From: Thiotrichaceae bacterium
GTDB taxonomy: Bacteria > Pseudomonadota > Gammaproteobacteria > Thiotrichales > Thiotrichaceae
Direction: 5' to 3'
NCBI GenBank assembly: GCA_027008885.1
Contig: JALVDQ010000010.1
Location: 1-18,443, forward strand
Length of the DNA stretch: 18,443 nucleotides
Shown here one piece after another: positions 1-18,321 of the stretch. The position numbers were made by a program, and so were the translations under genes. Below the pieces are notes generated by a model. It made no database searches, was not told where the DNA came from, and saw only the letters and a list, made by a program, of their open reading frames with translations. Position 1 is the stretch's first letter. The number at the start of each line of letters is the position of its first letter.

Positions 1-22
1 TTTATAAAAAAACTTATTTTTA

Positions 23-140
23 CCTGTTTTTGTGACATTATTCAATCACTAATTGAAGGCTGCAGTATAGCCCACTATGCTCCCGTCGCAATGCCTTGAA
101 TATCAAAAAACAGGAAACGAAATTTTGTTAAATTAATTTT
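23..140. repeat. Left copy of a structured dispersed repeat (window-end repeat)
   Basis: The 64 bases at 77-140 recur at 18060-18123 in the same orientation with one mismatch (G119 against A). Upstream of this core both copies also share a TATAGCCC motif and, further out, a CCTGTTTT arm. Here CCTGTTTTT (23-31) is complementary to AAAAACAGG (106-114), which suggests a long-range stem. No open reading frame was recognised in it. It may be a dispersed non-coding repeat or a small structured RNA. The duplication is seen directly; its nature is inference. Confidence 0.75.
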
Positions 141-154
141 GCTTGGGTACTTAG

Positions 155-1378
155 TTATAGATAGGCAAAGGGTATATTTATTAACTTATCATCAATTAAA
201 CCCAGTCGTTCATTGTTACATATTACAATCCCATAAGCACATTGGTAGTCTTTGATAAAGCCGCGAATACCTTTTAGCTCTCGTAAAGTTACGGTTTGTT
301 TATATTTAATCTCAATGGGTAATAAGCCAAACTCACCTTCCAGTACTAAATCTACTTCAGCGCCTGCGCTGGTTCGATAGTGAAAATAATTAAATGAACA
401 GCCTATGCTGTTTAAACCCCGAATCATATTCTCTATAACCATGGATTCCCATGAATGCCCCATTTGAGGGTGGGACAAAACATCATTTAGCCCATGCAGG
501 TGTAATAAATGGTGTAATAAACCTGAATCGCGTAAGTATCCTTTGGGATGTTTAACAATTCGTTTTTTGGCATTCTTTTCATAGGGTGGAATATGCCGCC
601 AGACAAATGTGCCATCGGCGATGGTAAAATATTCCCGGATGGTCGGCGCTGAAACCCCTAAAGTACGCGCAATATCTGAATAATTAATAATTGACCCAGA
701 AAGCTGCGCTAACATCTGTAAAAAAAGCTGGTATTTTGGGCGTTGTAAATTAGGGAATAAGCGTAAAATATCACGATCCAGGTAAGTCTGAACATAGTTT
801 TGCATCCATAACCTATCGAAACGTTTGTTATTTTTAACCCAGGGTTCGGGGAATCCACCCCGTAGCCAATAATCATGATGTTCCTGCAAGCTTGTTTTAG
901 GCGCAGGCATTTCTTGATAATCTGTCAGCAATGAGCTGGTTTGAATCAGATGAAATAATTGAGAGAATGGCTGTTGATACGCCTCGCGCATCATAAAGGG
1001 TGCAACTTCAATAATGGCAATCCGCCCTGCCAGACTTTCAGAAATTGACTGTACCAGAGCAGGTGAGCTAGACCCTGTTATAATGAATCGTCCTTTTTTT
1101 GTTCTGTCACTATCAATGGCTACACGCAAAGCAGGAAAAATCTCTGGTAATAATTGTGCTTCATCTAGCGCAATATTTTCAGGGTTAAGCCGAAAAAAAA
1201 GATCAGGATCACGAGCGATAAGCTCAAAGTCACTACGCTTCTCACAATCAAAAATCTGCCAGGGTTTTGGCAAGCTGTTAATGGTTGTAGTTTTTCCAGA
1301 CTGGCGAACCCCCGTGAGAGCAACACAGGGAAACAGGGTGAGAAGTTCATTTAAGTAAGTAGTAAAGCATCTTTTCAT
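155..1378 (-). CDS. AAA family ATPase with DUF4143 C-terminal domain
   Basis: This is a P-loop ATPase of the widespread AAA_14/DUF4143 type, about 407 residues from the ATG at 1378. Walker A is GVRQSGKTT (residues 23-31), Walker B is LDEAQ (71-75), and a sensor-like TGSSS follows near 101-105. A winged-helix-like stretch (about 230-260) precedes the C-terminal DUF4143 part. That part carries a PD-(D/E)XK-like pattern: E341-x-D343, then E356-x-K358. Reading can be extended upstream to a TTG at 1498. The ATG at 1378 gives the normal family N-terminus (MKRCFTTYLNELL), and an in-frame ATG at 1387 is also possible. A 22-bp-arm palindrome lies over both ATGs and could hide the initiation region. 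The gene is divergent from a related ATPase at 1535. The family's cellular role is poorly defined; members are often accessory and horizontally mobile. Confidence 0.88.
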   Translation of the reverse strand: MKRCFTTYLNELLTLFPCVALTGVRQSGKTTTINSLPKPWQIFDCEKRSDFELIARDPDLFFRLNPENIALDEAQLLPEIFPALRVAIDSDRTKKGRFIITGSSSPALVQSISESLAGRIAIIEVAPFMMREAYQQPFSQLFHLIQTSSLLTDYQEMPAPKTSLQEHHDYWLRGGFPEPWVKNNKRFDRLWMQNYVQTYLDRDILRLFPNLQRPKYQLFLQMLAQLSGSIINYSDIARTLGVSAPTIREYFTIADGTFVWRHIPPYEKNAKKRIVKHPKGYLRDSGLLHHLLHLHGLNDVLSHPQMGHSWESMVIENMIRGLNSIGCSFNYFHYRTSAGAEVDLVLEGEFGLLPIEIKYKQTVTLRELKGIRGFIKDYQCAYGIVICNNERLGLIDDKLINIPFAYL

Positions 1379-1423
1379 ACCTTGCATTATGAAATATCGA
1401 GTTTCATAATGCAAGGTATGAAA
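1373..1423. repeat. Perfect inverted repeat over the ATPase start codon
   Basis: Arms of 22 bp (1373-1394 and 1402-1423) are perfectly complementary around a 7-base loop, TATCGAG. The inner 19 bases of the left arm are CATACCTTGCATTATGAAA. Both candidate ATG codons of the minus-strand ATPase (1378 and 1387) lie inside the left arm. An mRNA starting upstream would therefore bury its start codon in a very stable hairpin. It could also be a protein-binding operator or a mobile palindrome. Confidence 0.9.
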
Positions 1424-1500
1424 CTTGACTCCTAGTTTGTTTTCCTGTGTCAGTCCAGCTTGATAATAAATCTTTCTAACTTCTTTTAAAACACCCAATT

Positions 1501-1535
1501 TGCATGGATTGTAAATCGGAATTACAATCTATGCA
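1501..1535. repeat. Second palindrome at the start of the divergent ATPase
   Basis: Arms TGCATGGATTGTAA (1501-1514) and TTACAATCTATGCA (1522-1535) match except for one pair, around a 7-base loop ATCGGAA. The right arm runs into the first base of the ATG at 1535. The plan (TTGCAT at the outside, an ATCG-containing 7-base loop, ATGCA at the other side) resembles the palindrome at 1373-1423. The two may be related operator-like sites between the divergent ATPase genes. Confidence 0.8.
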
Positions 1536-2982
1536 TGAATATTGTAAGGAAAATACAGCCTTTTCTACTAGAAATGGCAAATTACTATCCTGTTGTCGTA
1601 GTTACTGGTCCTCGGCAGTCGGGTAAAACCACTTTAACGCAACAGGCATTTCCTGAAAAAAACTACATTTCTCTGGAGGCTCTTGATAACAGGGCGTTTG
1701 CCAGTGAAGATCCTCGTGGTTTTTTAGAGGAGTACAAAGAAGGTGCTGTTATTGACGAGATACAGCATACACCAGAGTTACTCAGCTATATTCAGGACGT
1801 TATCGACAAGAACCCCAAAAAAGGGCGATTTATTCTTACTGGTTCTCAAAATTTTATGCTTAGTCAGGCAATTTCTCAAACACTCGCGGGGCGTTGCGGC
1901 ATTTTAACATTACTGCCCCCGGACTGGAGTGAGTTACAATGCTTTCCAAATTCCCCCGAAGATTTGCTAAGCCTGCTGTGGCAGGGGTGTTACCCCAGAA
2001 TTTATGACCAGAATATACCCGCCCAAAGGTGGTTAGCCGATTACACCACGACCTATGTGCAACGTGATGTGCGACAAATTACGCAAATAACCGATTTGAA
2101 TACATTTACAATATTTATGAAATTGTGCGCTGGAAGTACCGCGCAAGAAGTGAATCTGTCAAGGTTGGGTAATGATGCGGGCATTAGTCATAACACGGCA
2201 AAATCGTGGTTATCCGTTATGCAAACCGCCTGGCTAGTGCAAACATTACCCGCATGGCATAGAATTATTCGCAAACAAATTGTAAAAGCACCCAAGCTAC
2301 ACTTTATTGATACAGGGCTGGTTTGTTATTTGCTAGTACTCCAACAACATTGTATTGATGGCTACAGCGAGTCAGAAAGCGGTTAGCCACTAGGCGCCCT
2401 TTGCAGGAAATGGTTGTTCCCTTCACAAAAAGGGCAACAACGTGGATGACCACTTTCTGGCTCGCCCGAAGGGAGCAACCCAAAGCGTCCAATACAGCGT
2501 TATGACTCTTGTCAAGGGAGTAACCATTGCCTTCGAGCCATGCCTTGTCTTGAACGCTTTGGATTGCTCTGTATCCATCAATACAATATTGCTGGAGTAC
2601 TAGTATACGCAATGCAGAAGAATTGCGCTATCATCCACTGCGTGGGGCGATTTTTGAAAGCTGGGTTAGCACAGAGATTTTGAAGCACTATACTAACCAG
2701 GGAAAAACTCCCTCGCTTTATCATTATAGAGAATCACGAGGACTGGAAATTGATATTTTAATAGAAGCTGCTGATACTTTACAGCTTGTGGAAGTAAAAT
2801 CAGGAAGTACGATAATCCCGTCATTTTTTAAAAATTTAAAAAGATTTAGTCAAAACAGCAAGGAAAATTTTAAAATTCAGTCATCCCTGGTCTATGCTGG
2901 AGAAGAGTCATATAAACAGGCAGGTATCCAGTTAATAAGCTGGAGAGAACTGCCGACAGAATTAGAACGATGGAATATGTAG
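1535..2982 (+). pseudogene. DUF4143-type AAA ATPase, split by a 271-bp MITE
   Basis: The 5' part (1535-2332) begins MNIVRKIQPF and carries Walker A GPRQSGKTT (25-33), Walker B VIDEIQ (72-77) and LTGSQN (101-106), then runs to DTGLVCYLL. The 3' part resumes at about 2602 (SIRNAEELRYHPLRGAIFE) and contains the C-terminal EIDILIE...LVEVKSG nuclease-like motif, ending at TAG 2980-2982. The element at 2333-2603 lies between them and brings a stop at 2384-2386. Removing the element and leaving one CTAG does not restore frame: the flanks are still out of phase, so a further small indel is implied. The two halves together would make a typical ATPase of about 385-390 residues. It is a paralogue-like neighbour of the ATPase at 155-1378, divergently oriented, and is very likely inactive as a full protein. 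Confidence 0.87.
2333..2603. mobile_element. MITE-like element with 33-bp TIRs and two internal hairpins
   Basis: Terminal inverted repeats at 2333-2365 and 2571-2603 match at 30 of 33 positions and begin CTAGTACTCC. CTAG at each edge could be a target duplication or part of the TIR. The interior folds almost completely. Hairpin 1 pairs 2367-2383 with 2449-2465 (15 of 17), with an inner stem from 2413-2423 to 2430-2441. Hairpin 2 pairs 2473-2487 with 2555-2569 (14 of 15). The whole element thus forms a three-way, cloverleaf-like cruciform. There is no transposase. It interrupts the ATPase gene, which is independent evidence of insertion. Confidence 0.88.
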
Positions 2983-2998
2983 ATGTAGATAAGGGTAC

Positions 2999-3040
2999 TT
3001 ACACCAGAATATTGGCATCAAAAAACAGTTTATCAGTCAT
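2999..3040 (-). pseudogene. VapC-type PIN-domain toxin, N-terminal stub
   Basis: From the ATG at 3040 the minus strand reads MTDKLFFDANILV and then a TAA. FFDANILV is the conserved first strand of PIN-domain ribonucleases, including the first catalytic aspartate. The rest of the gene is missing: the homology breaks off just before the end of the neighbouring ATPase remnant. The start overlaps the end of the antitoxin remnant as ATGACTGA, the usual coupling in vapBC operons. It cannot be functional. Confidence 0.75.
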
Positions 3041-3262
3041 ATAAATCATCTCGTGACCAAGTACGTTTTCCCATATTCCGCTCTAAACAATGAAAGCTTT
3101 TTTTAGCAGGGCAATTTTACGCTCTCTTTCAGGTGCTTCACGATCTGCAACAGACTGCAGGTAATTTCGAATCATTGCTGTCATTGTGGTATTTTCATTA
3201 ATAGCAACCTTCGAACCTTTTTGATAATTTCATCATCTACATTTCAATGTAATATTCGCCAT
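3033..3262 (-). pseudogene. VapB-like antitoxin, frameshifted
   Basis: The ATG at 3262 opens MANITLK. Following similarity across frames gives VDDEIIKKVR, then VAINENTTMTAMIRNYLQSV, ADREAPERERKIALLKK, SFHCLERNMGKRTW and SRDDLYD, with a stop at 3035-3033. This is the layout of a short ribbon-helix-helix-like antitoxin. At least three single-base frameshifts break it: after MANITLK, after KKVR, and in a run of seven A/T near 3092. It overlaps the VapC stub by eight bases. The reconstruction was done by eye. Confidence 0.75.
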
Positions 3263-3342
3263 AGAAGAAACCCTTATTAAGGGTAAAACTTATTACGGCA
3301 ATGCAAATATGGTTTATCAAGATAATCTTTCGCAGGTTGTAG

Positions 3343-3409
3343 GTTGGGCAGAGGAACGAAGCCCAACGTGATTGGCTTTGATATTTGTTGGGTTACTACA
3401 TCAGCCCAA
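3343..3409. repeat. REP-like palindromes (GTTGGGC / GCCCAAC)
   Basis: GTTGGGC (3343-3349) and GCCCAAC (3361-3367) form a perfect 7-bp stem around 11 bases. A second weaker pair follows, TTGGG (3388-3392) and CCCAA (3405-3409). The wording (GTAGGTTGGGC...GCCCAAC) resembles extragenic repeats common in gammaproteobacteria. No coding potential was recognised. Confidence 0.6.
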
Positions 3410-3418
3410 GCTACGAAC

Positions 3419-3475
3419 TGACAAAATCTGAGAAAGCGTCATAAAGTGACAGAAAATACTGACGAAAATATGACA
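3419..3475 (+). promoter_or_regulatory. TGAC repeat cluster, candidate PilR-binding sites
   Basis: Four TGAC(A/G) repeats occur at 3419, 3447, 3460 and 3471; the last three are spaced 13 and 11 bases and followed by A-rich sequence. They lie roughly 115-170 bases upstream of the start expected from the sigma-54 promoter. In Pseudomonas, PilR is known to bind repeated TGTC/GACA-type sites upstream of a sigma-54 pilA promoter. That these are activator sites is inference. Confidence 0.5.
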
Positions 3476-3561
3476 AAGAGATATTTTTAGAACAAAGTCA
3501 GCTTTTGCAAAACTATAATAAAAAAATTAAAAATCAATAAGTTAAATCTAAAAATATTTTT

Positions 3562-3578
3562 TTGGCACGCCCCCTGCA
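3562..3578 (+). promoter_or_regulatory. Sigma-54 (RpoN) promoter of pilA
   Basis: TTGGCAC (3562-3568) followed by CTGCA ending at 3578 matches the -24/-12 consensus TGGCAC-N5-TTGC closely. The GG (3564-3565) and GC (3576-3577) are 12 bases apart, as required. Transcription should begin near 3588-3590, leaving a leader of about 135 bases before pilA. A small palindrome, GAACA-GAT-TGTTC, lies at the very start of that leader (3590-3602). Confidence 0.87.
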
Positions 3579-3723
3579 TTAATCTTAGCGAACAGATTGT
3601 TCAGGCTGTTAAGCTAATATTAACCATAAAGTTATATAATAGCCGCGCAGTCACAGTTAACTAACTTGCTGTTTAAGTTTACACAATTTAATTTAATCAT
3701 AAAAATAACTATTGGAGTTAAAA

Positions 3724-4149
3724 ATGAAAAAACAAGTACAAAAAGGTTTCACACTTATCGAATTAATGATCGTTGTAGCAATTATCGGTATTCTTGCCTC
3801 AATCGCTCTTCCTGCTTATCAGGATTACACAAAGCGAGCACATGTATCTGAAGGTTTGTCTCTGGCTTCTGGTGCTAAGACTGCGGTTTCAGAATTTTAC
3901 GCGACTAATGGTCACTGGCCTGCAAATAATGCATCTGCTGGTTTGGCAGCTGCGACCTCAATCAAAGGCACAGCGGTAACACAAGTTGCAGTGACTGGTA
4001 GTAAGGTAACTGCTACGTTTAATGATAAAGTTGAAAATGGTAAAGTATTGGTATTGAAAGCTACTGATAATGGTGGCGATATTGAATGGACTTGTAAAGG
4101 CAATGGTACAAACGTAGATGGTAAATATCTGCCTTCCAAGTGCCGTTAA
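3724..4149 (+). CDS. pilA: Type IV major pilin PilA
   Basis: This is the type IVa pilus structural subunit. The prepilin leader MKKQVQKG is followed by F, giving mature [20 protein letters not shown] with the conserved Glu5 for assembly. The protein is 141 residues before leader cleavage by PilD. The hydrophobic alpha-1 helix continues to PAYQDY. Cys124 and Cys140 bound a C-terminal disulfide loop ending KCR. The middle (residues 75-105) is rich in Thr, Ser and Ala and could carry glycans. The start is set by GGAG at 3715-3718; an in-frame TTG at 3712 would destroy the leader. A sigma-54 promoter lies upstream and a terminator downstream. The next gene encodes a membrane glycosyltransferase, which suggests the pilin is modified. 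Confidence 0.96.
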
Positions 4150-4188
4150 TAGCAGAATAAACTTCTCTTAGCAAGAGCGTGTTTTTAT

Positions 4189-4216
4189 AAAAGCCCTTCA
4201 AATGAAGGGCTTTTTT
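4189..4216 (+). terminator. Rho-independent terminator after pilA
   Basis: AAAAGCCCTTC (4189-4199) pairs with GAAGGGCTTTT (4204-4214) around a 4-base loop AAAT, with T residues continuing to 4216. It sits 40 bases after the pilA stop and before the glycosyltransferase. That gene may be expressed by read-through or from its own promoter. Confidence 0.92.
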
Positions 4217-4308
4217 ATTGGTATCAGTGTTATTCATACTAAGTTAAGAAGCTTCTGGTTAGTATGCTGTTTACTTCTTATAAATATAAAACAAAAACAA
4301 GAGTCTTT

Positions 4309-6249
4309 ATGGATACTCAATTACGCTTTATCAATAAAGGGATGCTATTATGGAGTAGCATCTTTCTACTGCTACTTATCTTTAGTTATTTTGTCTATTT
4401 ACCAGGCATTAGTGGTATCTTTATCTTTGATGATATTCCAAATTTGACCCCATTGGGTAAATACAGTGATTTTGGCTTCTGGAATGACTTCTGGATTTTT
4501 CTTCTTGAGGGAGATTCAGGACCAACAGGTAGACCAGTAAGTCTGGCAAGTTTTTATTTGAATGATACAAGTTGGCCAAGCTTGCCATTAAGTTTTATTC
4601 AAACAAATATCCTTATCCATCTTTTAAATGGTGTGTTAGTTTTCTGGGTATGCCTGAAATTGGCAAACAGGTTTAAGCTCAACAATAATTATCAAATCGG
4701 CTTTTCACTGCTTATTACCAGCTTCTGGTTATTGCACCCTATGCATACAACCACCGTACTGTATATTATTCAGCGTATGACCGAGTTAAGCGCAACCTTT
4801 ATGTTAACAGGTCTTGTTTTTTATCTTTATGGTAGGGAACAATTAGACAAAAATACAGTAAAAGGTTTTTTAACCCTTTTTATTGGTGTGGGCTCGAGCC
4901 TGATATTAGCCATATTGAGCAAGGAAAACGGCATTCTGTTGGTTGCTTATATTCTGGTGATTGAGTTTTTTTTATTTCAACCACTAAATATTAAACCACC
5001 CGTGAAGTTTTATTATTGGCTTGTTCCCGCTGTAATACTCCCTTTTCTTGTTATACTTATTTACCTGGGGTTAAGGACAAACCCCGGTGCTTTTATTAAT
5101 CGAGATTTTACACTTGAGGAAAGACTCTTAACAGAACCACGAATATTGTTTGATTATCTATATCATATTCTTGTTCCAAAAATGAATTATATCACTATTT
5201 TTCATGATGATTTTGAGTTATCCAAATCAATATTTAAGCCTATGACAACATTTTTTTCAGTTATAGGTCTGCTTTTATTAGTGCTTTTTAGCTTTGCATA
5301 TAGAAAAAAAATACCCTTTGTTAGCTTTGCAATTGCCTGGTTTTTTGCTGGTCATTTAATCGAATCGACTGTTTTGCCTTTGGAGCTTTATTTTGAACAT
5401 CGTAATTATTTACCGATGCTAGGAATTTTTATTTTATTAGGCTGGTATGCATCTTTATTTATTGAGCGACAAAAATCGCTTGTTGCTAGTATCGCTATTA
5501 TTATGTTATTGCTCAATGTGGCTATTTTGTTTCAGAATACTACGCTTTGGGGAAACCCACTGGAACTTGGTATAAACTGGTACCAAAATCACCCAAAATC
5601 AGAGCGTTCACGCTTGCTTTATGTTTCTGTTATGGAGGCGGCTGAGCTGCCTGTAAAACCTAAAGACAAACATCCCTTAACAGATAAAAATTCACAGTTT
5701 TACAGCACTTCTGCTTTTCTTGAATTGAAAAATGCCTGCATTGAAAATACGCTTACGGAAACCCAATTAAATAAAACAGTTAATATATTTGAAAGCAGTG
5801 TAATACATATCTCGGCAAAGACCAGGTTTTTAGAGTTTATAAATGAATGGGAGAAAGGAAAGTGCAAAGTAATTACTCCGACAGTACTAAAACACTATCT
5901 GAAGAAGTTGGCATCACTTGATAATATTAAAAAACACGGACAAATTGCCCACGATGTCCATTATGTGCTTTCTAATATCTATAAAAAAGAGAAAGATTTC
6001 CAAAGTACCATGTTACATCTGGATAAGGCTTATTCTTATAGTCCTTCTTATGAATTATTAAATCTTAAAATAGCAACTTTACTATCAGGTGGTCTTTATA
6101 ATGAAGCCTTAAAAGTATTAAATGACACCTCCAAACTAAAAACAACATTTAGAAAAAAGCTAGCCATGAAAATCAGGCAGAAAGAACTGGATCAACTAAA
6201 ACAGTTTATTCAAAATAAAATACGACAACAGCAAGCAAATAATACATAA
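4309..6249 (+). CDS. GT-C/TMTC-like membrane glycosyltransferase with TPR-like tail, candidate pilin glycosyltransferase
   Basis: From the ATG at 4309 the protein has 646 residues. Multiple membrane segments fill residues 12-420. Motifs resemble the TMTC/DUF1736-like branch of polyisoprenyl-phosphate-sugar glycosyltransferases: FDD (40-42) in the first outer loop, GRPVSLASFYLN (74-85), NILIHLLN, LLHPMHTT (141-148), LSKENGILL (203-211) and EHRNYLPMLG (363-372). The soluble C-terminal third (about 480-640) is helical, with TPR-like pieces near IYKKEKDFQSTMLHLDKAY. Such enzymes transfer sugar from a lipid carrier to extracytoplasmic targets. Its place directly behind pilA suggests the pilin as acceptor, as for TfpO and TfpW in Pseudomonas, but it is not clearly either family. 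An upstream ATG at 4264 is possible. Family placement is by motif reading; the pilin role is inference. Confidence 0.8.
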   Translation: MDTQLRFINKGMLLWSSIFLLLLIFSYFVYLPGISGIFIFDDIPNLTPLGKYSDFGFWNDFWIFLLEGDSGPTGRPVSLASFYLNDTSWPSLPLSFIQTNILIHLLNGVLVFWVCLKLANRFKLNNNYQIGFSLLITSFWLLHPMHTTTVLYIIQRMTELSATFMLTGLVFYLYGREQLDKNTVKGFLTLFIGVGSSLILAILSKENGILLVAYILVIEFFLFQPLNIKPPVKFYYWLVPAVILPFLVILIYLGLRTNPGAFINRDFTLEERLLTEPRILFDYLYHILVPKMNYITIFHDDFELSKSIFKPMTTFFSVIGLLLLVLFSFAYRKKIPFVSFAIAWFFAGHLIESTVLPLELYFEHRNYLPMLGIFILLGWYASLFIERQKSLVASIAIIMLLLNVAILFQNTTLWGNPLELGINWYQNHPKSERSRLLYVSVMEAAELPVKPKDKHPLTDKNSQFYSTSAFLELKNACIENTLTETQLNKTVNIFESSVIHISAKTRFLEFINEWEKGKCKVITPTVLKHYLKKLASLDNIKKHGQIAHDVHYVLSNIYKKEKDFQSTMLHLDKAYSYSPSYELLNLKIATLLSGGLYNEALKVLNDTSKLKTTFRKKLAMKIRQKELDQLKQFIQNKIRQQQANNT

Positions 6250-6258
6250 CTAAAGCAT

Positions 6259-6366
6259 GAACAGGCAAAAGCATATTATAATCAGTTTGGTTTTATCTCA
6301 ATGCCGGAACAGTTGGAGAATTTGTTTTTACCATTAGGTACACTTGAGAAAAATATGAGTGCTTAA
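6259..6366 (+). pseudogene. C-terminal fragment of a GNAT-type (TacT-like) toxin
   Basis: Starting 9 bases after the glycosyltransferase stop, the frame reads EQAKAYYNQFGFISMPE, then QLENLFLPLGTLEKNMSA and TAA (6364-6366). AKAYY-QFGF-PLP...LFLP...TLEK is the usual C-terminus of small acetyltransferase toxins of DUF1778-GNAT toxin-antitoxin pairs. No start codon, acetyl-CoA-binding loop or antitoxin is present. It is a 35-residue remnant, probably left when the pilin-glycosyltransferase segment was joined to this DNA. Confidence 0.75.
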
Positions 6367-6411
6367 TTATACTCTTCCCGTGTTTCGTGCCTCACACAGG
6401 TTTTAGCCACA

Positions 6412-7632
6412 CTATCCCTGCTTTCTGGATAGAGCCCTGATAAGCCTTTTAAGCAGCTGCTTGACTGGTCCATGTATAAACAGAAAGAGATGTGATTTGA
6501 TATTTTTCTTTTCAAAAGAAATATTGTACATGCTTTCTGTATTTCCTGCGTATCTGCGTTTATAGGTTGACTCATCATCAGAGTACATAAAATTAAAATA
6601 TTTGAGTCTGTTATTTTCGATACTGGAAGAAATTTCCTGGGTCAGCATCATGGTCAATAATGAGTAGCGTTGCCCATTTTCTTTTTCAAAGCCACTTTGG
6701 TAAGCATGTATGGTGTCACCATCAATAAAGGAATAGAGCACTGCAACTGGCTCCTGTTCGAAGCGCAAGATTTTTAGGGAGATGCCCTGTTGCGGATTGC
6801 TCTGATTCAGCAGTCTTTTGGCGAGTTTGTGATGATAATTCTCGAAATTAGGCTGTTCAAACGAACTCGGTTTTTCCAGATAGCCCCGACGCGCACGGTT
6901 TAGATCCGCGAGTAAAGAGATCGCCTTGTCAATGTGTTTGCTGTTATCAACAGATTCAATGCTAAATTTTTTTTCCCTCTGGAGACGTGAAAATGTTCTG
7001 GTAATATTATTCCGCATTTTCTTTTTAAGGCTCATTAAATAAGCCTTGTAGCTATCAGGAAGTTCAATCAGGGTGCGAAAGCCATGCCGTTGGGTGGTTT
7101 TTATGATGTCTGCCTGATATTCAGAAAATAAATCAGAAATATGTGAATTGTTTAATAACTGGTGAAATTTTAAACCATCCCACAACTCCTTGTTAGTAAA
7201 TAAAAAATCTGATACCGTTTTGATGACAGCCTGTTCGTTTCCAGGTGCAATGATCAAGTCCATATATTCACCAAAAACGGCACTACCATCGGTTTCTCCT
7301 GTACCAAGCATAATGACCTGCCTGCTACAGGGAAAATACTTTTTGGGATTGTAGGCGATTTGCAAAGGCGCTATGCCAACCAGCTTTTCAGACGGGTCAT
7401 AACAACAAATAATATAAAGCTGGCGTTTGCCATCTGCCTTATAGACTTCCCACCAAGTATATAGCCACTCCCATGAGGTGAAAATATTTCCCTTGTCTGC
7501 TTTATTATTGAGTTCACTCCATTCGCGTTGAAGCTGCTTAAATATTTTATCGTCAGTGATTAAACTTATCGTTAGAAAAGTCTCAGCGGAGCTTTTACCG
7601 TTTGCTTCATATAAATTATTCAAGTGCATCAT
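6412..7632 (-). CDS. CelD/BcsL-like GNAT-family protein
   Basis: A soluble 406-residue protein of the GNAT_acetyltransf_6 (PF13480-like) type. Near the N-terminus it has FTSWEWLYTWWEVY (51-64), the aromatic signature of this family. A basic stretch follows at about 203-222 (KKKMRNNITRTFSRLQREKK), then the core acyl-CoA fold with HAYQSGFEKENGQRYSLL (309-326) and FNFMYSDDESTYKRRYA (347-363). Relatives occur with cellulose and exopolysaccharide genes and resemble FemAB-type aminoacyl transferases; substrates are mostly unknown. Here it lies near, but not in one tight operon with, the wza-wzb-wzc genes on the same strand, which suggests surface-polysaccharide acylation. ATG codons at 7632 and 7629 are both usable. 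Confidence 0.85.
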   Translation of the reverse strand: MMHLNNLYEANGKSSAETFLTISLITDDKIFKQLQREWSELNNKADKGNIFTSWEWLYTWWEVYKADGKRQLYIICCYDPSEKLVGIAPLQIAYNPKKYFPCSRQVIMLGTGETDGSAVFGEYMDLIIAPGNEQAVIKTVSDFLFTNKELWDGLKFHQLLNNSHISDLFSEYQADIIKTTQRHGFRTLIELPDSYKAYLMSLKKKMRNNITRTFSRLQREKKFSIESVDNSKHIDKAISLLADLNRARRGYLEKPSSFEQPNFENYHHKLAKRLLNQSNPQQGISLKILRFEQEPVAVLYSFIDGDTIHAYQSGFEKENGQRYSLLTMMLTQEISSSIENNRLKYFNFMYSDDESTYKRRYAGNTESMYNISFEKKNIKSHLFLFIHGPVKQLLKRLIRALSRKQG

Positions 7633-7691
7633 TCGATCTGCTTTGATTGATATTAAAGAATGCTATATCTTTTGGGATCAGAAAAGATGAA

Positions 7692-7763
7692 ATGAGTAGA
7701 GTGTTTAATTATCTTGATAAACGTATAAAACAGGGTTGGGAATGGATCTTTGAGCCTATATAG
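7692..7763 (+). CDS. Possible 23-residue small ORF
   Basis: ATG at 7692 opens MSRVFNYLDKRIKQG and ends WEWIFEPI before TAG (7761-7763). The peptide is amphipathic, with a basic middle and an aromatic C-terminal end. It sits in the gap between two minus-strand genes. A GGGATC 18 bases upstream is only a poor ribosome-binding site. It may be chance or a fragment; no family was recognised. Confidence 0.2.
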   Translation: MSRVFNYLDKRIKQGWEWIFEPI

Positions 7764-7790
7764 TTCACAGCCCTGGAAAATTCAACTCCA

Positions 7791-8285
7791 TTACCAGGTT
7801 GCATCTTCTACAATGCTTGCAAGCAGCTCTTCAATTTCCTTGATCACTTTTTCCGAACCTGGTTTGCCATTTGGAACCTGGTAGCTAATATGGACTATTT
7901 GGGGTTCAGTCACTAACGAATAAATACCAATCGTAAAAGGGCATACCACGATATTGTCCGGATCAGCGCGAGACAATTCCTGCGATAGTTTTGCACTACA
8001 AAACTCCAGAATTTGAGCGTGCGAGTAGACAGATTTTTTATAACCATAGGCAGGTCCAGTCCTTTGCAACATATCACTGGCATGTAACTCATGGGCGATA
8101 TTAATGCCTTTCCCAAGGATTGCAGAACGCAGACTTTGTACGACTTCAAAATAATTGCCACTGACCTTGGTTGTCACTATTTTGGGTATTCTTGCAGATT
8201 TATTATTTTCAGCTGCAATAACAAGATTGATTAGAAAAAAACCGAGTAAGGCTATGAATATTGATTTTATTTTTGCATTCATCAT
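7791..8285 (-). CDS. Periplasmic DUF302-domain protein
   Basis: A 164-residue exported protein. Residues 1-25 form a signal peptide (hydrophobic FIALLGFFLINLVIA, likely cleavage near AA-E). The DUF302 fold follows: SGNYFEVVQSLRSAILGKGI (42-61), ILEFCSAKLSQELSRADPDN (92-111) and IVVCPFTIGIYS (112-123). Cys96 and Cys115 are at the positions often conserved in this family. DUF302 proteins have no settled function; some are near sulfur-oxidation or redox genes. AGAGG lies 12 bases before the first ATG, and two more ATGs follow closely. It has no obvious operon partner. Confidence 0.87.
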   Translation of the reverse strand: MMNAKIKSIFIALLGFFLINLVIAAENNKSARIPKIVTTKVSGNYFEVVQSLRSAILGKGINIAHELHASDMLQRTGPAYGYKKSVYSHAQILEFCSAKLSQELSRADPDNIVVCPFTIGIYSLVTEPQIVHISYQVPNGKPGSEKVIKEIEELLASIVEDATW

Positions 8286-8450
8286 ACTGTTTGTTTACCT
8301 CTAGCGTATATGGAACTTGAATTAGGAGATATACTTGTTTTTTTGCAGGATTACAATTTAATAATTTTTATTATAGCTGAAGCAGTGACTTCAATGCGGA
8401 CAGGGAAGACAACGCATTGTTAAACCAGTACTCCTGTGTTTCGTTCCCAC

Positions 8451-8510
8451 AGGCTACGCAAAAATATGTAAAAACAGGGGGGGTGGGTGTTTCTGAGGAC
8501 AGAGGACAGA
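8451..8510 (+). repeat. G-rich direct repeat, copy 1
   Basis: Bases 8461-8510 match 8701-8750 at 48 of 50 positions, and 8451-8460 match 8691-8700 at 8 of 10. The unit contains AAAAACAGGGGGG, then TGGGTGTTTCTGAGGACAGA. In this copy GGACAGA continues as further imperfect copies to about 8526. Confidence 0.88.
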
Positions 8511-8538
8511 AGACTGAGGACAGAAAATAGCTCCGTAG

Positions 8539-8565
8539 GTCGGATTAGCCCAAGCGTAACTCGAC
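8539..8565 (+). repeat. REP-like GTCGGATTA palindrome, copy 1 (imperfect)
   Basis: GTCGGATTA, nine bases (GCCCAAGCG), then TAACTCGAC instead of the expected TAATCCGAC. The bases after it (GATCGTGGCACTATGTTTGGATAACG) closely follow those after the copy at 18322, so the true repeat unit is longer than the palindrome. Confidence 0.75.
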
Positions 8566-8690
8566 AGATCGTGGCACTATGTTTGGATAACGTATAGCCA
8601 GCGTTGAGCATGTAGGGTTGCTGGTGTTTACGCAACCAACCAGATTCGGTTGGTTTCGCATGGCTGCTCCAACCCTACGCAGCTCAAAAC

Positions 8691-8750
8691 AGACTACACA
8701 AAAATATGTAAAAACAGGGGGGATGGGTGTTTCTGAGGACAGAAGACAGA
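8691..8750 (+). repeat. G-rich direct repeat, copy 2
   Basis: This is the partner of 8451-8510, offset by exactly 240 bases. The two differ at the end of the G run and in the GAGGACAGA tail. No coding role was recognised. Confidence 0.88.
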
Positions 8751-8869
8751 TAGCAAAGCATATAGACTGCGTTGAATATGCAAACGCGGGATGGCGCGGT
8801 ATTAACCACTGCCTTCGTTTTTTGTGGGTTAGATTAGCATCGCGTTATCCAGCATTGTGCCGCGATTTT

Positions 8870-8896
8870 GTCGGATTACGCTTGGACTAATCCGAC
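8870..8896 (-). repeat. REP-like GTCGGATTA palindrome, copy 2
   Basis: GTCGGATTA (8870-8878) and TAATCCGAC (8888-8896) are perfect 9-bp arms around a 9-base loop. Read on the minus strand the loop is GTCCAAGCG, similar to the loops of the other copies, so this copy is inverted relative to them. Confidence 0.85.
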
Positions 8897-8933
8897 TGCA
8901 AACTAAAATTTAAACCTTGCTCATGAAATAAAC

Positions 8934-8962
8934 CTGAACCCGTGGAGCCAATGCGGATTCAG
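8934..8962 (-). terminator. Possible terminator after the wza-wzb-wzc operon
   Basis: CTGAACCC (8934-8941) and GGATTCAG (8955-8962) form an 8-bp stem with one G-T pair, immediately beyond the wzc stop codon. On the minus strand it is followed by GTTTATTT rather than a strong U-run, so termination would be weak. Confidence 0.4.
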
Positions 8963-8963
8963 A

Positions 8964-11207
8964 TTATTTGTCTGACTTATAATCGCTATAATAAGAATAG
9001 CCGTAACCATAGCCACCATAGCCATAGCTCTTCTTTTTGGCATCGTAACCATTGAATATAAAGCCCTTGGTTTCTATTTTGCTTTGAGCCAAACGCTTCA
9101 CTGCACCCTCTATTTCTTTAATGTTATGCCTATCTGCGAAAACAACCATAAAGACGACGCCGGCTAATTGCCCTATAATTGTAGGATCTGTTACAGCATG
9201 AACCGGAGGCGTATCGATAAGAATCAAATTATATTCTTTTTGAAGCTGATCGAGTAACTCCTTAAAGCCCTTGTGCATTAGCAATTCAGAAGGATTTGGC
9301 GGTGTTTTGCCTCTGGTAATGACATCCAGAGATTCTTCCCCTACCTCGATTGTATGTATAGCTTCTTTTAATGTGGCTTGCTCGCTGATTAAATCAGAAA
9401 GCCCTGGAGAGACTGGTTTTCCAAGCATATTATGAAGATAGCCCTTGCGCATATCCGCATCAATAAGTAAAACCTTTTTCTCGGAACTTGCCAGCACAGC
9501 GGCAAAGTTTGAAGAAATAAAAGACTTGCCAATTCCTGGAGCCGGTCCTGTTATCATAACGATGTTATTATCCTCCGCTTCTAATAAAGCAAAGTGCAGA
9601 CTGGTACGCAAACCCCGCAAACTTTCGATCGAAGGATCCGTTGGGTTTTCGCTTGCCAATAGCTTTTTTTGCCGCTTTCTTTTCCCTATTCCACCGGTTA
9701 GTTTTACACCTGTACTTAGTGGCACTGTCGCGTAAACCGGAATACCTGTGGCTTTTTCGATTTCTTCCGGGTTATCCACTGTCTGGTGTAAAGCTTTTCT
9801 TAAAAAGACAAACAACACACCAAACATGCCACCTAACAGGGAACCCAATGCAAGAATCAGTGCTTTTTTGGGCTTGACAGGTTTTTCATAAGCTACGGCA
9901 GTATCAACAATATAAACATTACCGACCTTACTTGCCTTGGTAACTTTAAGTTCCTGAATTTTATTGACCAAATTAAGGTAAGTCCCATTTTTTACCTTGT
10001 AATCACGTTCCAGCTTGAGTAATTCCTGTTGGGTTTTTGGTAGTTTTGATATTTTTACACGAGTTTTCTTTTTTCTCGCAAGCAATTTTGCTTCCTGCGC
10101 GGCAAGCGCCTGGATAATGGGATGATTTTTGGCATATTTTGGTCCCAGCTCAACTTTTTTTAAGGAGATTTTTTGCAACTCGGCATCAATACTGGAAATC
10201 ACATCAAGGACACTCTGTGTCTCCATGGAAATATCGGCGGTTTGATGGCGGGTTCGATAAAGTCTCAACCTGCTTTCAGCTTTTTCAACCTCTTTCTTTA
10301 CTGATCCGATTTGCTTTTGCAAAAACTCCAGGGCACTCTTTGCCTCCTCGGAACTGCGCGACTTGTTTTGTTCGACATATGTTTTGGAAATATGATCAAG
10401 TGTTTTTACAATCAGGTTTTTATCAGAACCTTCAAGTACGAGACTTATAATCCCAGTTTTTTTACCTTTTTCAGATGCTTTTATGTCTTTTTGAAGAGAA
10501 CCAATCACATTTAATTTAGATTGTTTTATCAGGGTATATTCAGTCCCGGGGAGACCCGTTAGCTCACGCACTTTTATTTCTACAGAGCCATCTTTGGAAC
10601 GCGAATAGCGCCCGACTTTACCGTCGAGAAGAAACTCGCCCTCCCTCGTAAAAAGTTTATAGGCACCATTTTTCCCGTTAACAAGAGTGAGTTTTTTGTT
10701 TAGAAGATTTTCCGGAACTTCCAGTCTGCTAACGTCAATCTGCTCATTACCCCACGCAAATTTATGCACGAATTGATCAAACTTGTCCCAAACGGGAGGT
10801 AATTTTTTTACATCATCGACGTTAAAAAATTTCTTGTACAAATTACCAAAAAGGGGAATTCGTTTAGGTTTGGTCTTGATATCCAGTTTCAGGTCCTTGA
10901 TTGCCTTGCCCAGATTTTTTCTTGATTTTATAATTTCAATTTCAGTTCCTACCGTCGCATCTTCACCACCGGCAAGACCTGCAAAATCTTCCAGACCTGC
11001 CATGACCGACGGCTTTTTTTCTACCTGAAGCAAGGCATCAGCCTTGTAAATTGGTATTTGTCCAAATGCATAAATAAATGCGAATAAAGTAAAAAGGAGT
11101 GTAAAAAGTATAATCCACCATTTACCCTCCATTAAGGTATGAAATAATTCCAATAAATCAATTTCATCATCTTCTTCTTGTGAAGAGATATTGGCTTTAT
11201 CATTCAT
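8964..11207 (-). CDS. wzc: Wzc-like polysaccharide co-polymerase and BY-type tyrosine kinase
   Basis: An inner-membrane protein controlling chain length and export of capsule or exopolysaccharide. From the ATG at 11207 it has 747 residues. It comprises TM1 (about 29-49), a long periplasmic Wzz domain with a coiled coil (about 285-420), TM2 (about 450-470), and a cytoplasmic kinase with Walker A GPAPGIGKS (554-562), Walker A' VLLIDADMR (579-587) and Walker B LILIDTPP (661-668). The C-terminal tail SYGYGGYGYGYSYYSDY holds eight tyrosines for autophosphorylation. The frame can extend to 11258, but that would overlap the phosphatase gene and lacks a ribosome-binding site. The chosen start lies 22 bases after wzb. 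Dephosphorylation by the adjacent Wzb-like phosphatase is expected from the known system. Confidence 0.95.
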   Translation of the reverse strand: MNDKANISSQEEDDEIDLLELFHTLMEGKWWIILFTLLFTLFAFIYAFGQIPIYKADALLQVEKKPSVMAGLEDFAGLAGGEDATVGTEIEIIKSRKNLGKAIKDLKLDIKTKPKRIPLFGNLYKKFFNVDDVKKLPPVWDKFDQFVHKFAWGNEQIDVSRLEVPENLLNKKLTLVNGKNGAYKLFTREGEFLLDGKVGRYSRSKDGSVEIKVRELTGLPGTEYTLIKQSKLNVIGSLQKDIKASEKGKKTGIISLVLEGSDKNLIVKTLDHISKTYVEQNKSRSSEEAKSALEFLQKQIGSVKKEVEKAESRLRLYRTRHQTADISMETQSVLDVISSIDAELQKISLKKVELGPKYAKNHPIIQALAAQEAKLLARKKKTRVKISKLPKTQQELLKLERDYKVKNGTYLNLVNKIQELKVTKASKVGNVYIVDTAVAYEKPVKPKKALILALGSLLGGMFGVLFVFLRKALHQTVDNPEEIEKATGIPVYATVPLSTGVKLTGGIGKRKRQKKLLASENPTDPSIESLRGLRTSLHFALLEAEDNNIVMITGPAPGIGKSFISSNFAAVLASSEKKVLLIDADMRKGYLHNMLGKPVSPGLSDLISEQATLKEAIHTIEVGEESLDVITRGKTPPNPSELLMHKGFKELLDQLQKEYNLILIDTPPVHAVTDPTIIGQLAGVVFMVVFADRHNIKEIEGAVKRLAQSKIETKGFIFNGYDAKKKSYGYGGYGYGYSYYSDYKSDK

Positions 11208-11229
11208 TATATTTATATTCTCTTGTTGG

Positions 11230-11664
11230 CTATTTCCAGAGTTTTTTCTGCCAGGCATTTAAGCCAGACTCAATCAGGGAAGCAGCTGATGCAAAAGCAG
11301 CCTTATCTTTTTTGTACGGATCCGGGATTTCCTGATTATCAAGCCACTTTCCAATCAGGAAAACTTTGCCCCTGGCTTCAGGGAACTGAGAGCGAATTGC
11401 TTCAATATGTTTTTGTTCCATAGTCAGAATCAAATCAGATGCAGAAACAAGTACAGAGTTAATCTGCTGAGCACAATGATTACTTAAGTCAATATTTTTT
11501 TCAGCCATAAGTTCAACAGAAAATGGGTCAGCAGGCTTGCCAACCAAAGCCCCCAGACCTGAAGAATACACATTTAATTGTGGCTGCTGATGTTTTAGCA
11601 AGACTTCTGCTATGGGGCTTCGACAAATATTACCTACGCAAACCATCATTACATTTTTAAACAT
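11230..11664 (-). CDS. wzb: Low-molecular-weight protein-tyrosine phosphatase (Wzb-like)
   Basis: A cytosolic 144-residue phosphatase. The P-loop CVGNICRSP places the nucleophile Cys9 and Arg15, and the general-acid loop is DPY (115-117). Both are intact, so it should be active. A TAAGG ribosome-binding site precedes the ATG by about 7 bases. It lies between wza and wzc with gaps of 23 and 22 bases, so the three genes form one operon. By analogy with E. coli Wzb it removes phosphates from the Wzc tyrosine tail to cycle export. Confidence 0.95.
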   Translation of the reverse strand: MFKNVMMVCVGNICRSPIAEVLLKHQQPQLNVYSSGLGALVGKPADPFSVELMAEKNIDLSNHCAQQINSVLVSASDLILTMEQKHIEAIRSQFPEARGKVFLIGKWLDNQEIPDPYKKDKAAFASAASLIESGLNAWQKKLWK

Positions 11665-11687
11665 AATTAACCTTAAATATAGATTTA

Positions 11688-12827
11688 TTACTTGAGAAGA
11701 GTATCTGTATTGTTAGTAATTGTAGATGTTGACAATAGCTGACTAATAACCCTGTTCCAGCGAGTCATAGGAGCAGCAGTAACATAAACGATATCTCTTG
11801 AACGCAAAGGAAACTGCTCTGCAAGCAACATCGAATGCACAGACGTCATCTGCAATTGATATACAGACGGAAGCTTATCCTTTGGATTTTCCTGTCTTAC
11901 AACAAATATTCCTGTTGGGCTTGCCGTTTCTTCATTTATTCCACCTGAATCACTTAATGCTTCAGCCAAAGTTAAACCAAAACGATCCAGGTGCAAGCTA
12001 CCCGGCTTTTTAACTTCCCCTAAAACAAATACTTTTTCTGATGGGTTTTTCTCTGCTATATACAAAGCATCTCCGCCCCTCAGAACATAGTTTTGAGAAT
12101 TATCCCCCTTGCGGTAAAGAGCGCCAAGGTCGATTTTTATTTTCTTGTTATGATGAGACAATAATGCCAGATCTGACGCTTTTTCTGTTAAGCCCCCTGC
12201 TTTTGCAATAATATCCCGAACGGTCAGGGGAATATCATTAACAGGAATAACTCCCGGTTTTAATACCTGACCCGATATGTATGCCTGCTGGCTCCTATAG
12301 GCAGCAATAGAAACACCAACCTGTGGTTTGGTAATATTTTTAGTCAACTTTTGTTCTAATTCGCGTCTTATCTGTTCAGTTGTTCGACCAGCCGCCTGTA
12401 TTATCCCGGCATAGGGAAAAAAGAAACGTCCATCACTGCCAACTTTGTGACCCGCTGCGGTAGGTGAACGAAATTCACCTGCGGGTATTGTTAACTCAGG
12501 ATGATCCCAAACTGTAATGCTCAAGATATCCTGTGGTCCCACACGATATGAATAGCCACCAATACCTCTTGATCGGGGTTGTCGCGTATTTATTCGTTTA
12601 TGTCGTTTATGAGTCTCCCTCTGCTTGCGCACCACCTGTGGAGTTAAAGGAATCAACTTATAATCAATATTAGGTCTTGCGGGAGCAGGTCGTGGCGAAT
12701 ATCTTGCCTCAATAGTAGGCATACCCGGGATCACAAATCTTGAACAGCCGGCAAGAAAAAAAGCTACAAAACTGATGACAACAAGCCTGGCAAACAAACG
12801 ATTAGTGGTCACAAAAAGATTAATCAT
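11688..12827 (-). CDS. wza: Wza-like outer-membrane polysaccharide export lipoprotein
   Basis: A 379-residue outer-membrane channel subunit. A lipoprotein signal ends in LAGC with Cys28 as lipidation site. The polysaccharide export (PES) domain begins YRVGPQDILSITVWDHPELT (about 94-113) and runs to about 175, followed by two SLBB-like domains (about 180-260 and 268-350). The C-terminus RWNRVISQLL is the amphipathic helix that lines the outer-membrane pore in Wza. A basic, proline-rich linker (45-90) separates the lipid anchor from the PES domain and is longer than usual. It is the first gene of the minus-strand operon wza-wzb-wzc. It is confidently a PES-family protein; the gene name rests on context. 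Confidence 0.93.
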   Translation of the reverse strand: MINLFVTTNRLFARLVVISFVAFFLAGCSRFVIPGMPTIEARYSPRPAPARPNIDYKLIPLTPQVVRKQRETHKRHKRINTRQPRSRGIGGYSYRVGPQDILSITVWDHPELTIPAGEFRSPTAAGHKVGSDGRFFFPYAGIIQAAGRTTEQIRRELEQKLTKNITKPQVGVSIAAYRSQQAYISGQVLKPGVIPVNDIPLTVRDIIAKAGGLTEKASDLALLSHHNKKIKIDLGALYRKGDNSQNYVLRGGDALYIAEKNPSEKVFVLGEVKKPGSLHLDRFGLTLAEALSDSGGINEETASPTGIFVVRQENPKDKLPSVYQLQMTSVHSMLLAEQFPLRSRDIVYVTAAPMTRWNRVISQLLSTSTITNNTDTLLK

Positions 12828-12863
12828 AAGGTGAAATTATAGAAATGGAATTGACGGCAGAAT

Positions 12864-12890
12864 AGTATAGTTTTTTTTATTAAAATACAA
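12864..12890 (-). promoter_or_regulatory. Possible sigma-70 promoter for wza-wzb-wzc
   Basis: On the minus strand TTGTAT (12890-12885) and TATACT (12869-12864) are separated by 15 bases, or TTTGTA by 16, about 40 bases before wza. The -10 match is good and the spacing is short. The rest of the 317-base gap 12828-13144 is AT-rich and shows no gene. No JUMPstart or ops (GGCGGTAG) element was found in it. Confidence 0.35.
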
Positions 12891-13144
12891 AGCATTCTTA
12901 ATTTCATTATTAGAACAGATAGTTTTTAAGCGATGGAGTCTTGTTCATGCTCAGTTTATAAGTCTAAATGAGCACTTTTAACGCAGCTATTGGGCAAAAT
13001 AGAGAGTGAGCCGAGTAGTTACAGATAAAAGAGCACAGACAAAAATAAACACCTTATCCTTAATATAATTCCTGCTATCACCTAAGTCTTTCTCCAAAGA
13101 AATGTTTCTAATAAATTGCGTAACATATTCAGGGAAGATTTAAT

Positions 13145-13465
13145 ATGAAAAAACATAGCAATACATCATTCACTGTCCTTCTATTCTCAAGTATTCTGGG
13201 AGTTCTTGTTGTTTCCACTCTGGTAGCGGCTTCGAGCTTCTTTTTACGCCCGGTTATCGAGCTTGATCTTAAGAACAAGCTTATCAGTGATCTTTTAAAA
13301 GCTGGAATCACTCCACCCGTAATAAATATTTCCGGAAGGGATATTACACTGAGTGGCTTTATCTCAAATGAAAAAGAGTCAATAAGAACTGAAGAAACAG
13401 CAAAAAAAGTTTGGGGTGTTCGGAAAGTCAACAACCATTTAATTGTAAGAAGCAAAATTGAATAG
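13145..13465 (+). CDS. Membrane-anchored BON-domain protein
   Basis: A 106-residue protein with an N-terminal membrane anchor or uncleaved signal (about 9-35) and one BON domain (38-103): LKNKLISDLLKAGI, then VINISGRDITLSGFISNEKE, then VWGVRKVNNHLIV. Gly71 is at the conserved BON turn. BON domains (as in OsmY and some OmpA-like proteins) bind phospholipid or envelope components in the periplasm. GGGAAGATTTAAT directly before the ATG is the ribosome-binding leader, and nearly the same leader precedes the next gene. A role in envelope integrity is inference. Confidence 0.82.
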   Translation: MKKHSNTSFTVLLFSSILGVLVVSTLVAASSFFLRPVIELDLKNKLISDLLKAGITPPVINISGRDITLSGFISNEKESIRTEETAKKVWGVRKVNNHLIVRSKIE

Positions 13466-13642
13466 TTACTGCACATTCGGCAGACAAGCCCTGCTCAAAC
13501 ACTGATAAGCAGTCCAGCAATGGAATCCTTTAGTTGCTAAAATCACAGTAGAAAAGGAGCCGGAACACTGGCAACATCAGTAGCATCGGCAGCAAAGATG
13601 CCTGCTTGTTTTTTAACATTTTGATACCAGAAAACTAAAACC

Positions 13643-13674
13643 TGTCTGGAAATATACCTTACTATTTCCGGACA
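13643..13674. repeat. Hairpin between the BON and coiled-coil genes
   Basis: TGTCTGGAAATA (13643-13654) pairs with TATTTCCGGACA (13663-13674), 11 Watson-Crick pairs plus one G-T, around an 8-base loop. It ends 14 bases before the ribosome-binding site of the next gene and has no T-run. It is therefore more likely an operator or mRNA leader structure than a terminator. Confidence 0.65.
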
Positions 13675-13697
13675 AGTTCCAAATCAAGGAAGATTTA

Positions 13698-14015
13698 ATG
13701 ACTTATTTTTTATTACAAATTACCTTTGTTACGTCTATTGCCTTTATCGCAGGAGCCATCATTGGCTGGTGGCTGCACCATTACTATAACAAAAAACCCA
13801 CATCGGATAACGATCTGGGTTTAATTAAAAGTTATCTGGCAGAATCCATAAAAGAAAACGCACTTCTCAAGCTTCAACTAAAAAATGCGGAAAGCAGTAT
13901 CAATAAACTCAGAAATAGTGATCGGCTAAACACACTGAAAGAGAATGATTTCGACGCATTTAAGGCATTTGAAGATACCTTGAAAGAAGCACAGATGAGA
14001 AAATATCTGAATTAG
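13698..14015 (+). CDS. Small membrane protein with coiled coil (YhcB-like layout)
   Basis: A 105-residue protein with one N-terminal membrane helix (about 3-26) containing a glycine-small motif (AGAIIGWWLHHYY), then a charged helical region (38-78) likely to form a coiled coil and a helical C-terminus. The plan resembles YhcB/LapD-type (DUF1043) cell-envelope proteins, but this is layout only and no family is claimed. AAGGAAGATTTA precedes the ATG. It follows the BON gene by 232 bases and faces the oxygenase gene convergently. Confidence 0.75.
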   Translation: MTYFLLQITFVTSIAFIAGAIIGWWLHHYYNKKPTSDNDLGLIKSYLAESIKENALLKLQLKNAESSINKLRNSDRLNTLKENDFDAFKAFEDTLKEAQMRKYLN

Positions 14016-14037
14016 GGATGAATTAAGGGAATAAAAG

Positions 14038-15024: not shown

Positions 15025-15033
15025 GCGATTAAA

Positions 15034-16029: not shown

Positions 16030-16066
16030 GCGCGCTTTATTTCTTAGTGGTTTCAATAATTAATGT

Positions 16067-16098
16067 GGTTTAAGACAGATGCGGTTTAAAAACAGATG
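16067..16098 (+). repeat. Tandem near-duplicate at the yejM-like start
   Basis: GGTTTAAGACAGATG (16067-16081) and GGTTTAAAAACAGATG (16083-16098) are adjacent near-copies, each ending in ATG. Only the second ATG (16096) is the start of the long protein. No clear Shine-Dalgarno precedes it. Confidence 0.6.
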
Positions 16099-17961: not shown

Positions 17962-17999
17962 CTTGAGTACCCGCTCAAAATTAATCTAACAATTTAGCC

Positions 18000-18123: not shown

Positions 18124-18150
18124 CAAGTTTCGGAGTTCAAATCTATCGTT

Positions 18151-18299: not shown

Positions 18300-18321
18300 G
18301 GGGCAAACCTGTGTTTTGTAG

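Follow-up and report, generated by a model that had tools for sequence, protein, structure and literature searches.

A predicted membrane glycosyltransferase encoded directly behind pilA in a Thiotrichaceae genome: a probable pilin O-glycosyltransferase distantly related to TfpW

We analysed an 18,443-nucleotide stretch of Thiotrichaceae bacterium DNA (GenBank assembly GCA_027008885.1, contig JALVDQ010000010.1, positions 1 to 18,443, here called the window), which is contig C10 of a 2.97 Mb genome assembled in 494 contigs with an estimated completeness of 100%. The gene at 4309-6249, directly behind the type IV pilin gene pilA, encodes a protein that is probably a periplasmic pilin O-glycosyltransferase taking a monosaccharide from polyprenyl phosphate; its catalysis, sugar and acceptor residue we infer. 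This is the best supported reading, and it draws on the predicted fold, the invariant residues, the linkage to pilin genes, a hairpin between the two genes, the coupling of the enzyme family to a glycosyltransferase family 2 (GT2) gene and the homology to TfpW. TfpW of Pseudomonas paraeruginosa PA7/Pa5196 is the group IV pilin arabinosyltransferase and, to our knowledge, the only characterised pilin glycosyltransferase outside the Wzy_C kind.

Results

An earlier note on this DNA had placed a 646-residue protein right behind pilA, and both the open reading frame (ORF) and the type IV pilin identity of its upstream gene were confirmed. The protein is predicted to join a glycosyltransferase C (GT-C) domain to a tetratricopeptide repeat (TPR)-like tail, and the locus consists of:

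3724-4149, + strand: pilA-type major type IV pilin, 141 amino acids (aa), the probable acceptor (Pilin PF00114, E 1.2e-25; N_methyl PF07963, E 2.3e-10)
4189-4214, + strand: Rho-independent terminator-like hairpin between pilA and the enzyme gene (11-pair stem and T-rich tail; fold z-score -2.75)
4309-6249, + strand: predicted GT-C glycosyltransferase of 646 aa that ends in a TPR-like domain (ORF directly after pilA)

The closest match to the window PilA among 38 related genomes compared is found in G009 (79% identity).

Homologues of the enzyme were surveyed in the 80 named loci that rank highest among 458 confirmed stretches, with pilins called by an N-terminal motif pattern that atypical pilins may escape. 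The enzyme gene stands directly behind a pilin gene in 47/80 of these loci; a pilin gene lies upstream with another enzyme copy between in 6, is divergent from the enzyme gene in 3 and occurs only elsewhere in the locus in 5, and a further 6 loci are too short upstream, which leaves 74 judgeable. When linkage is defined as a same-strand pilin gene beginning no more than 1 kb upstream, 54/74 loci are linked, compared with 9/397 other ORFs of at least 300 aa in the same loci (Fisher p 2e-44), a strict control because those ORFs come from pilin-holding loci. The proposed tie of the enzyme to pilin genes is therefore far above chance. Forty further, lower-scoring loci, hand-picked down the profile score list with most second copies and contig-end places omitted, include 26 in which the enzyme gene is pilin-adjacent. 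Paired adjacent copies of the GT-C gene, mostly behind a pilin gene, were also seen (L023, L033, L047, L053, L073, L078, L079 and L080).

Of the 47 loci with direct linkage, 36 have a terminator-like hairpin no more than 150 bp past the pilin stop, whereas the controls gave 30/577 stretches after ORFs of at least 200 aa in the same loci and 18/500 random stretches. Pilin-accessory cassettes of P. aeruginosa commonly carry a terminator after the pilin gene, according to an excerpt of PMC11841053, and the terminator-like hairpin of the window may be the attenuator typical of such cassettes.

The AlphaFold2 model of the enzyme (pLDDT, the predicted local distance difference test score, 94) has a GT-C membrane domain and a TPR-like tail, as the earlier note had supposed, and its nearest solved structures by VIA-align are Pmt4, Stt3, AglB and ArnT. 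Foldseek alone returned nothing for the model at E <=0.001, so that the GT-C matches are those of VIA-align, in which the lack of a solved WaaL/PglL structure was given no weight; Pfam and NCBIfam scans of the enzyme gave no match above cut-off, a PDB sequence search nothing useful and a plasmid tblastn no match. In the model the membrane fold carries an acidic pair in its first periplasmic loop, as in GT-C enzymes. The parts of the protein are listed below; the TMTC motifs (M1 to M7) are those of TMTC1-4, TPR-bearing O-mannosyltransferases of animals that belong to the GT-C/PMT clan.

4309-5598, + strand: predicted GT-C membrane domain, residues ~1-430
5626-6246, + strand: predicted C-terminal all-helical TPR-like domain, residues ~440-646
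4429-4434, + strand: DD motif D41 D42, in the place of TMTC M1 and the GT-C acidic pair; invariant in 93 homologues and in 25 aligned proteins including TfpW
4531-4536, + strand: R75 P76 of GPTGRP; both invariant in the 93 homologues, R75 invariant and P76 nearly so in the 25
4921-4926, + strand: K205 E206 of SKENG, in the place of TMTC M4; invariant in the 93 homologues and the 25 aligned proteins
5203-5211, + strand: HDD, residues 299-301, family acidic motif (LHP in the TfpW loop); D300 and D301 in at least 90% of the 93
5395-5409, + strand: EHRNY (R365), near TMTC M7 ERxxY and TfpW HERF; H364 to Y367 invariant in the 93

The TPR-like domain is possibly the part that docks the pilin.

A GT2 gene lies directly downstream of the GT-C gene (same strand, <500 bp) in 43/80 named loci, with 1 kb or more of downstream sequence available in 75 of the 80, and in 13/40 further loci; anywhere in the locus the counts are 45/80 and 23/40. 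They come from a profile scan at E 1e-40, which replaced a narrow pattern scan (11/80), and the profile was seeded by nine sequences from the same loci, so the within-locus count is not independent of its seeds. The genome co-occurrence search used one sequence: at E <=1e-30 the GT2 was detected in 12/14 genomes with the enzyme vs 0/43 without it (57 related genomes; p 1e-10), and weaker matches (E ~1e-14) occur in G002 and G007, both without the enzyme. The two genes are not neighbours in G009 and G025, and so the co-occurrence does not reflect adjacency alone; both lie near contig ends in G031, where adjacency is not readable.

One such GT2 (L263) was scored against NCBIfam; its top five families, AglJ (119 bits vs a cut-off of 325), ArnC, PgfS, a dolichyl-phosphate hexose transferase and PpgS, all fall short of their cut-offs. 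Among the solved structures related to a second one (L019) are ArnC and dolichol-phosphate mannose synthase, and a hydropathy scan of four GT2 proteins showed one or two C-terminal hydrophobic segments. Enzymes of these names load sugar onto lipid phosphate, and the GT2 can be described as resembling such lipid-phosphate-sugar synthases. Downstream of the GT2 of G025 come genes that pass the cut-offs for glucose-1-phosphate cytidylyltransferase and CDP-glucose (cytidine diphosphate glucose) 4,6-dehydratase, and genes of like appearance follow the GT2 of G031, a hint of a CDP-deoxyhexose in these two genomes. In two relatives the GT2 heads a deoxysugar gene group of the CDP-glucose 4,6-dehydratase type, at L263:3535-8501 (+) and L264:42-4324 (+), of which L263 was the one scored.

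The genome treated here as that of PA7 (G527) has pilA, then a 641-aa ORF and then a 245-aa ORF, which match the descriptions of TfpW and TfpX in excerpts of PMC12369383 and PMC11841053. A whole-genome search with the enzyme-family profile found PA7 TfpW at 44 bits (E 2.1e-11), and hhalign of the enzyme-family against the TfpW alignment detected full-length homology (99.7% probability, E 4.6e-26, 553 columns, 17% identity). The TfpW model (pLDDT 94.4) has membrane-length helices and then helical repeats, in an order like that of the enzyme, and its GT-C structural neighbours are alike. An unrooted 81-row quick tree splits off 20 TfpW or TfpW-like rows by a branch of 1.84 (SH-aLRT, the Shimodaira-Hasegawa-like approximate likelihood ratio test, 100), and the window enzyme lies deep on the other side of it; in this tree the long branches of TfpW and L158/L160 meet, L242 and L225 are long ends, and twelve rows have an odd letter make-up. 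The enzyme falls outside the TfpW clade, and by this quick method its family appears to form a clade of its own within a wider group that includes TfpW. The tree has a third group, formed by the Pseudomonadaceae members L158 and L160, which are also right behind a pilin gene; these genes (L158:4596-6278 and L160:4300-5928, both +) encode shorter pilin-adjacent GT-C/TPR proteins, apart from TfpW and from the window family.

We regard it as highly improbable that the enzyme is a plain TfpW orthologue which arabinosylates pilin, although its position, plan and full-length homology are alike and L003 has the PA7 order of pilA, GT-C gene and TfpX-like gene. The identity of 17%, the long internal branch that divides the two clades in the quick tree and the coupling of the window family to the GT2 argue against it. 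A scan of the window's own genome for an arabinose route gave three UbiA-family matches, with no arabinofuranose cluster recognised in the ~1.5-kb flanks read.

We fetched 13 pilin-gene regions from relatives without the enzyme and read the place after pilA that it would occupy. A TfpX-like gene stands beside pilA in 6/13 (G002, G004, G006, G007, G010 and G011, all of the window's genus), with 25-30% identity to PA7 TfpX (E 1e-20 to 4e-28). In G013 the pilin gene is followed by a gene for a Wzy_C protein (E 1e-18), and in G012 the pilin genes are followed by one for a Sulfatase/EptA_B_N protein (E 3e-35 and 1e-5), possibly a pilin phosphoethanolamine transferase. This Sulfatase/EptA-like gene was located at L201:2390-4135 (+), directly behind two pilin genes. 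No accessory-type gene was recognised by eye in the G014, G017, G022 and G023 regions, and in the G003 region the contig ends. L003 combines the enzyme gene with a TfpX-like one (26%, E 2e-31). Judged from gene order, the slot after pilA is exchangeable among relatives, paralleling the pilin cassettes of Pseudomonas.

Profile matches to the enzyme family (E <=0.001) were detected in 125/369 sampled Gammaproteobacteria genomes, 104 of them below 1e-50 by hand count and 21 weak (E 1e-20 or worse); a few of the 104 strong-match genomes fall in far, pilin-free branches, e.g. L243-L247. Among the best 80 of 458 stretches the closest relatives of the enzyme lie in Thiotrichaceae metagenome-assembled genomes (L002, 67%; L003, 57%; L004, 48% identity), and the enzyme is present in 14/57 related genomes. 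Clear family members behind a pilin gene are found in two Pseudomonadaceae genomes as well (L156, 434 bits; L157, 419 bits). Two enzyme gene copies with internal stops, G069:C1:1406931-1407689 and G077:C67:5040-6952, are apparently decaying. Among the papers listed by our searches of the open PubMed Central (PMC) library, none was found to describe the family; it is widespread in bacteria and apparently unnamed.

Elsewhere in the window, the downstream neighbour of the enzyme gene (6412-7632, opposite strand) encodes an Acetyltransf_6 domain. A 271-bp stretch at 2333-2603, with 35-nt inverted ends that are 91% complementary, resembles a small insertion of the miniature inverted-repeat transposable element type; it coincides with the point at which an ATPase-like ORF (1535-2386) is cut short, and another ORF follows at 2623-2982. 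Between the DUF302-like and wzc-like genes, 8449-8896 lies in a stretch without convincing genes and holds a pair of 62-nt direct repeats (94%) separated by 240 bp, together with inverted repeats of 28 nt. The minus strand carries Wzc-, Wzb- and polysaccharide-export-like genes at 8964-12827, the export protein alone being above cut-off, and 16096-17961 encodes a YejM/EptA-like sulfatase-fold membrane protein (147 of 825 bits, below the NCBIfam cut-off).

Discussion

We propose that the enzyme resides in the inner membrane and modifies the product of the adjoining pilA. A GT2 synthase would first attach a monosaccharide to polyprenyl phosphate at the cytoplasmic face, the lipid-sugar would then be flipped, and the periplasm-facing GT-C site (DD, Arg/Lys/Glu, EHRNY) would pass the sugar on to Ser/Thr of PilA while the pilin is still held in the membrane, ahead of pilus assembly. 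Recognition of PilA may be aided by the TPR-like domain on the periplasmic side, and the terminator behind pilA would hold enzyme expression low relative to pilin.

Several observations weigh against this proposal. The survey of homologues beside pilA that the earlier note had called for found most of them linked, but 13/80 named loci have no pilin gene at all (with at least 0.8 kb upstream present), 5 others have one only elsewhere in the locus, and in 14 of the 40 further loci no pilin gene adjoins the enzyme gene, the six lowest-scoring (L242-L247, at most 305 bits) all being without a pilin gene. The refuting condition of that note, homologues unlinked to pilin genes, is thus partly borne out, and some members may have other acceptors. 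The linked pilins share Ser/Thr columns, seven of which reach ~60% or more, with no obvious single acceptor site. Within the window's genus the enzyme is present in 2/12 genomes (its own and G009), and so it comes and goes among close relatives. The family GT2 was found neither next to the enzyme gene nor elsewhere in the window's own 494-contig assembly, where an assembly gap and a real loss are indistinguishable, and the two PF00535 genes of that assembly are by eye neither of the lipid-phosphate synthase kind; the donor step is therefore putative for the window strain. G046 likewise carries the enzyme without the GT2.

The loci without pilin genes also bear on the possibility of a general O-glycosyltransferase, which would share the pilin locus for co-regulation only and modify other or many periplasmic or surface proteins; some members stand, by eye, beside folD-like or capsule-type glycosyltransferase genes. 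We consider this unlikely, given the 47/80 loci directly behind pilin, the cassette-type hairpin in 36 of those 47 and the occupation of the slot in relatives by other pilin-accessory-type genes. The members without pilin linkage are scattered among linked ones on the 81-row quick tree, which suggests several changes of linkage. Transfer of the sugar to a non-protein acceptor, as a side chain of lipopolysaccharide or exopolysaccharide in the fashion of ArnT or GtrC, is in our view the least probable explanation, as the pilin linkage and the homology to the pilin enzyme TfpW speak against it.

In a bolder reading, pilA, the GT-C/TPR-like transferase and its own AglJ/ArnC-like GT2 could form a separate and widespread portable cassette for pilin glycosylation. 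We tentatively suggest that it may be swapped at pilA against TfpX-like, Wzy_C and EptA-like genes, altering pilus surface chemistry between close relatives, perhaps under phage pressure, with the TPR-like domain reading the pilin. Lipid-phosphate-based pilin glycosylation would, if the family acts on pilin, be common and no mere Pseudomonas oddity. The GT-C and GT2 gene pair is testable for the sugar, the site and phage protection, and the enzyme family offers bacterial models of the TMTC-like plan. TfpW had already set the precedent for this kind of enzyme, beside which the family would stand as a distant cousin clade.

Comparison with known systems

Pmt4, Stt3, AglB and ArnT share 9-12% identity with the enzyme in structural alignments and differ in accessory domains and acceptors. 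The O-oligosaccharyltransferases PglL, TfpO, TfpM and PglS carry the O-antigen ligase-related (Wzy_C) domain, and an excerpt of PMC12645811 states that the TfpO, TfpM and PglS genes often adjoin the gene of the modified pilin or pilin-like protein. A search of the enzyme for Wzy_C returned nothing up to E 1, whereas the slot gene of G013 is readily recognised by the same domain; by that test the enzyme is therefore not PglL/TfpO-like, as the earlier note had held.

The same note had assigned the enzyme to the plan of TMTC. In TMTC1-4 the GT-C domain leads and the TPRs end the protein, an order that the enzyme, with its predicted TPR-like tail, may share. The part of PMC7801869 that describes the motifs gives M1 DD, M2 SHKSYRP, M3 RxD, M4 KET/Q, M5 DW and M7 ERxxY. 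Compared with these six published motifs, the enzyme keeps the DD that M1 places in the first luminal loop (D41 D42). Of M2 it has RP but not HKSY, of M3 the R but not the D, and of M4 the KE; at M5 there is a D but no DW, and EHRNY stands near M7. None of M2, M3, M4, M5 and M7 is complete. No Pfam match to DUF1736, the TMTC domain, was found in the enzyme at E up to 1. Membership of the TMTC family was set aside because of the missing DUF1736 match and the several changed motifs.

The contrast that had been drawn, a TMTC plan instead of a TfpW one, proved false, since TfpW has the same plan, with DD, RP, RFD, KE and ER motifs, and is a full-length homologue. Its RFD and HERF are nearer to the TMTC RxD and ERxxY than are RMTE and EHRNY of the window enzyme. 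Both genes lie directly after the major pilin gene, in the window with the terminator-like hairpin between, as is typical of the TfpW family; both proteins are predicted to have a GT-C domain and C-terminal helical repeats, they have DD, RP, KE, Tyr283 and Pro290 in common, and a TfpX-like gene can come next in either system. The enzyme family differs in having RMTE, FHDD and EHRNY where TfpW has RFDL, LHP and HERF, and in its coupling to the AglJ/ArnC-like GT2.
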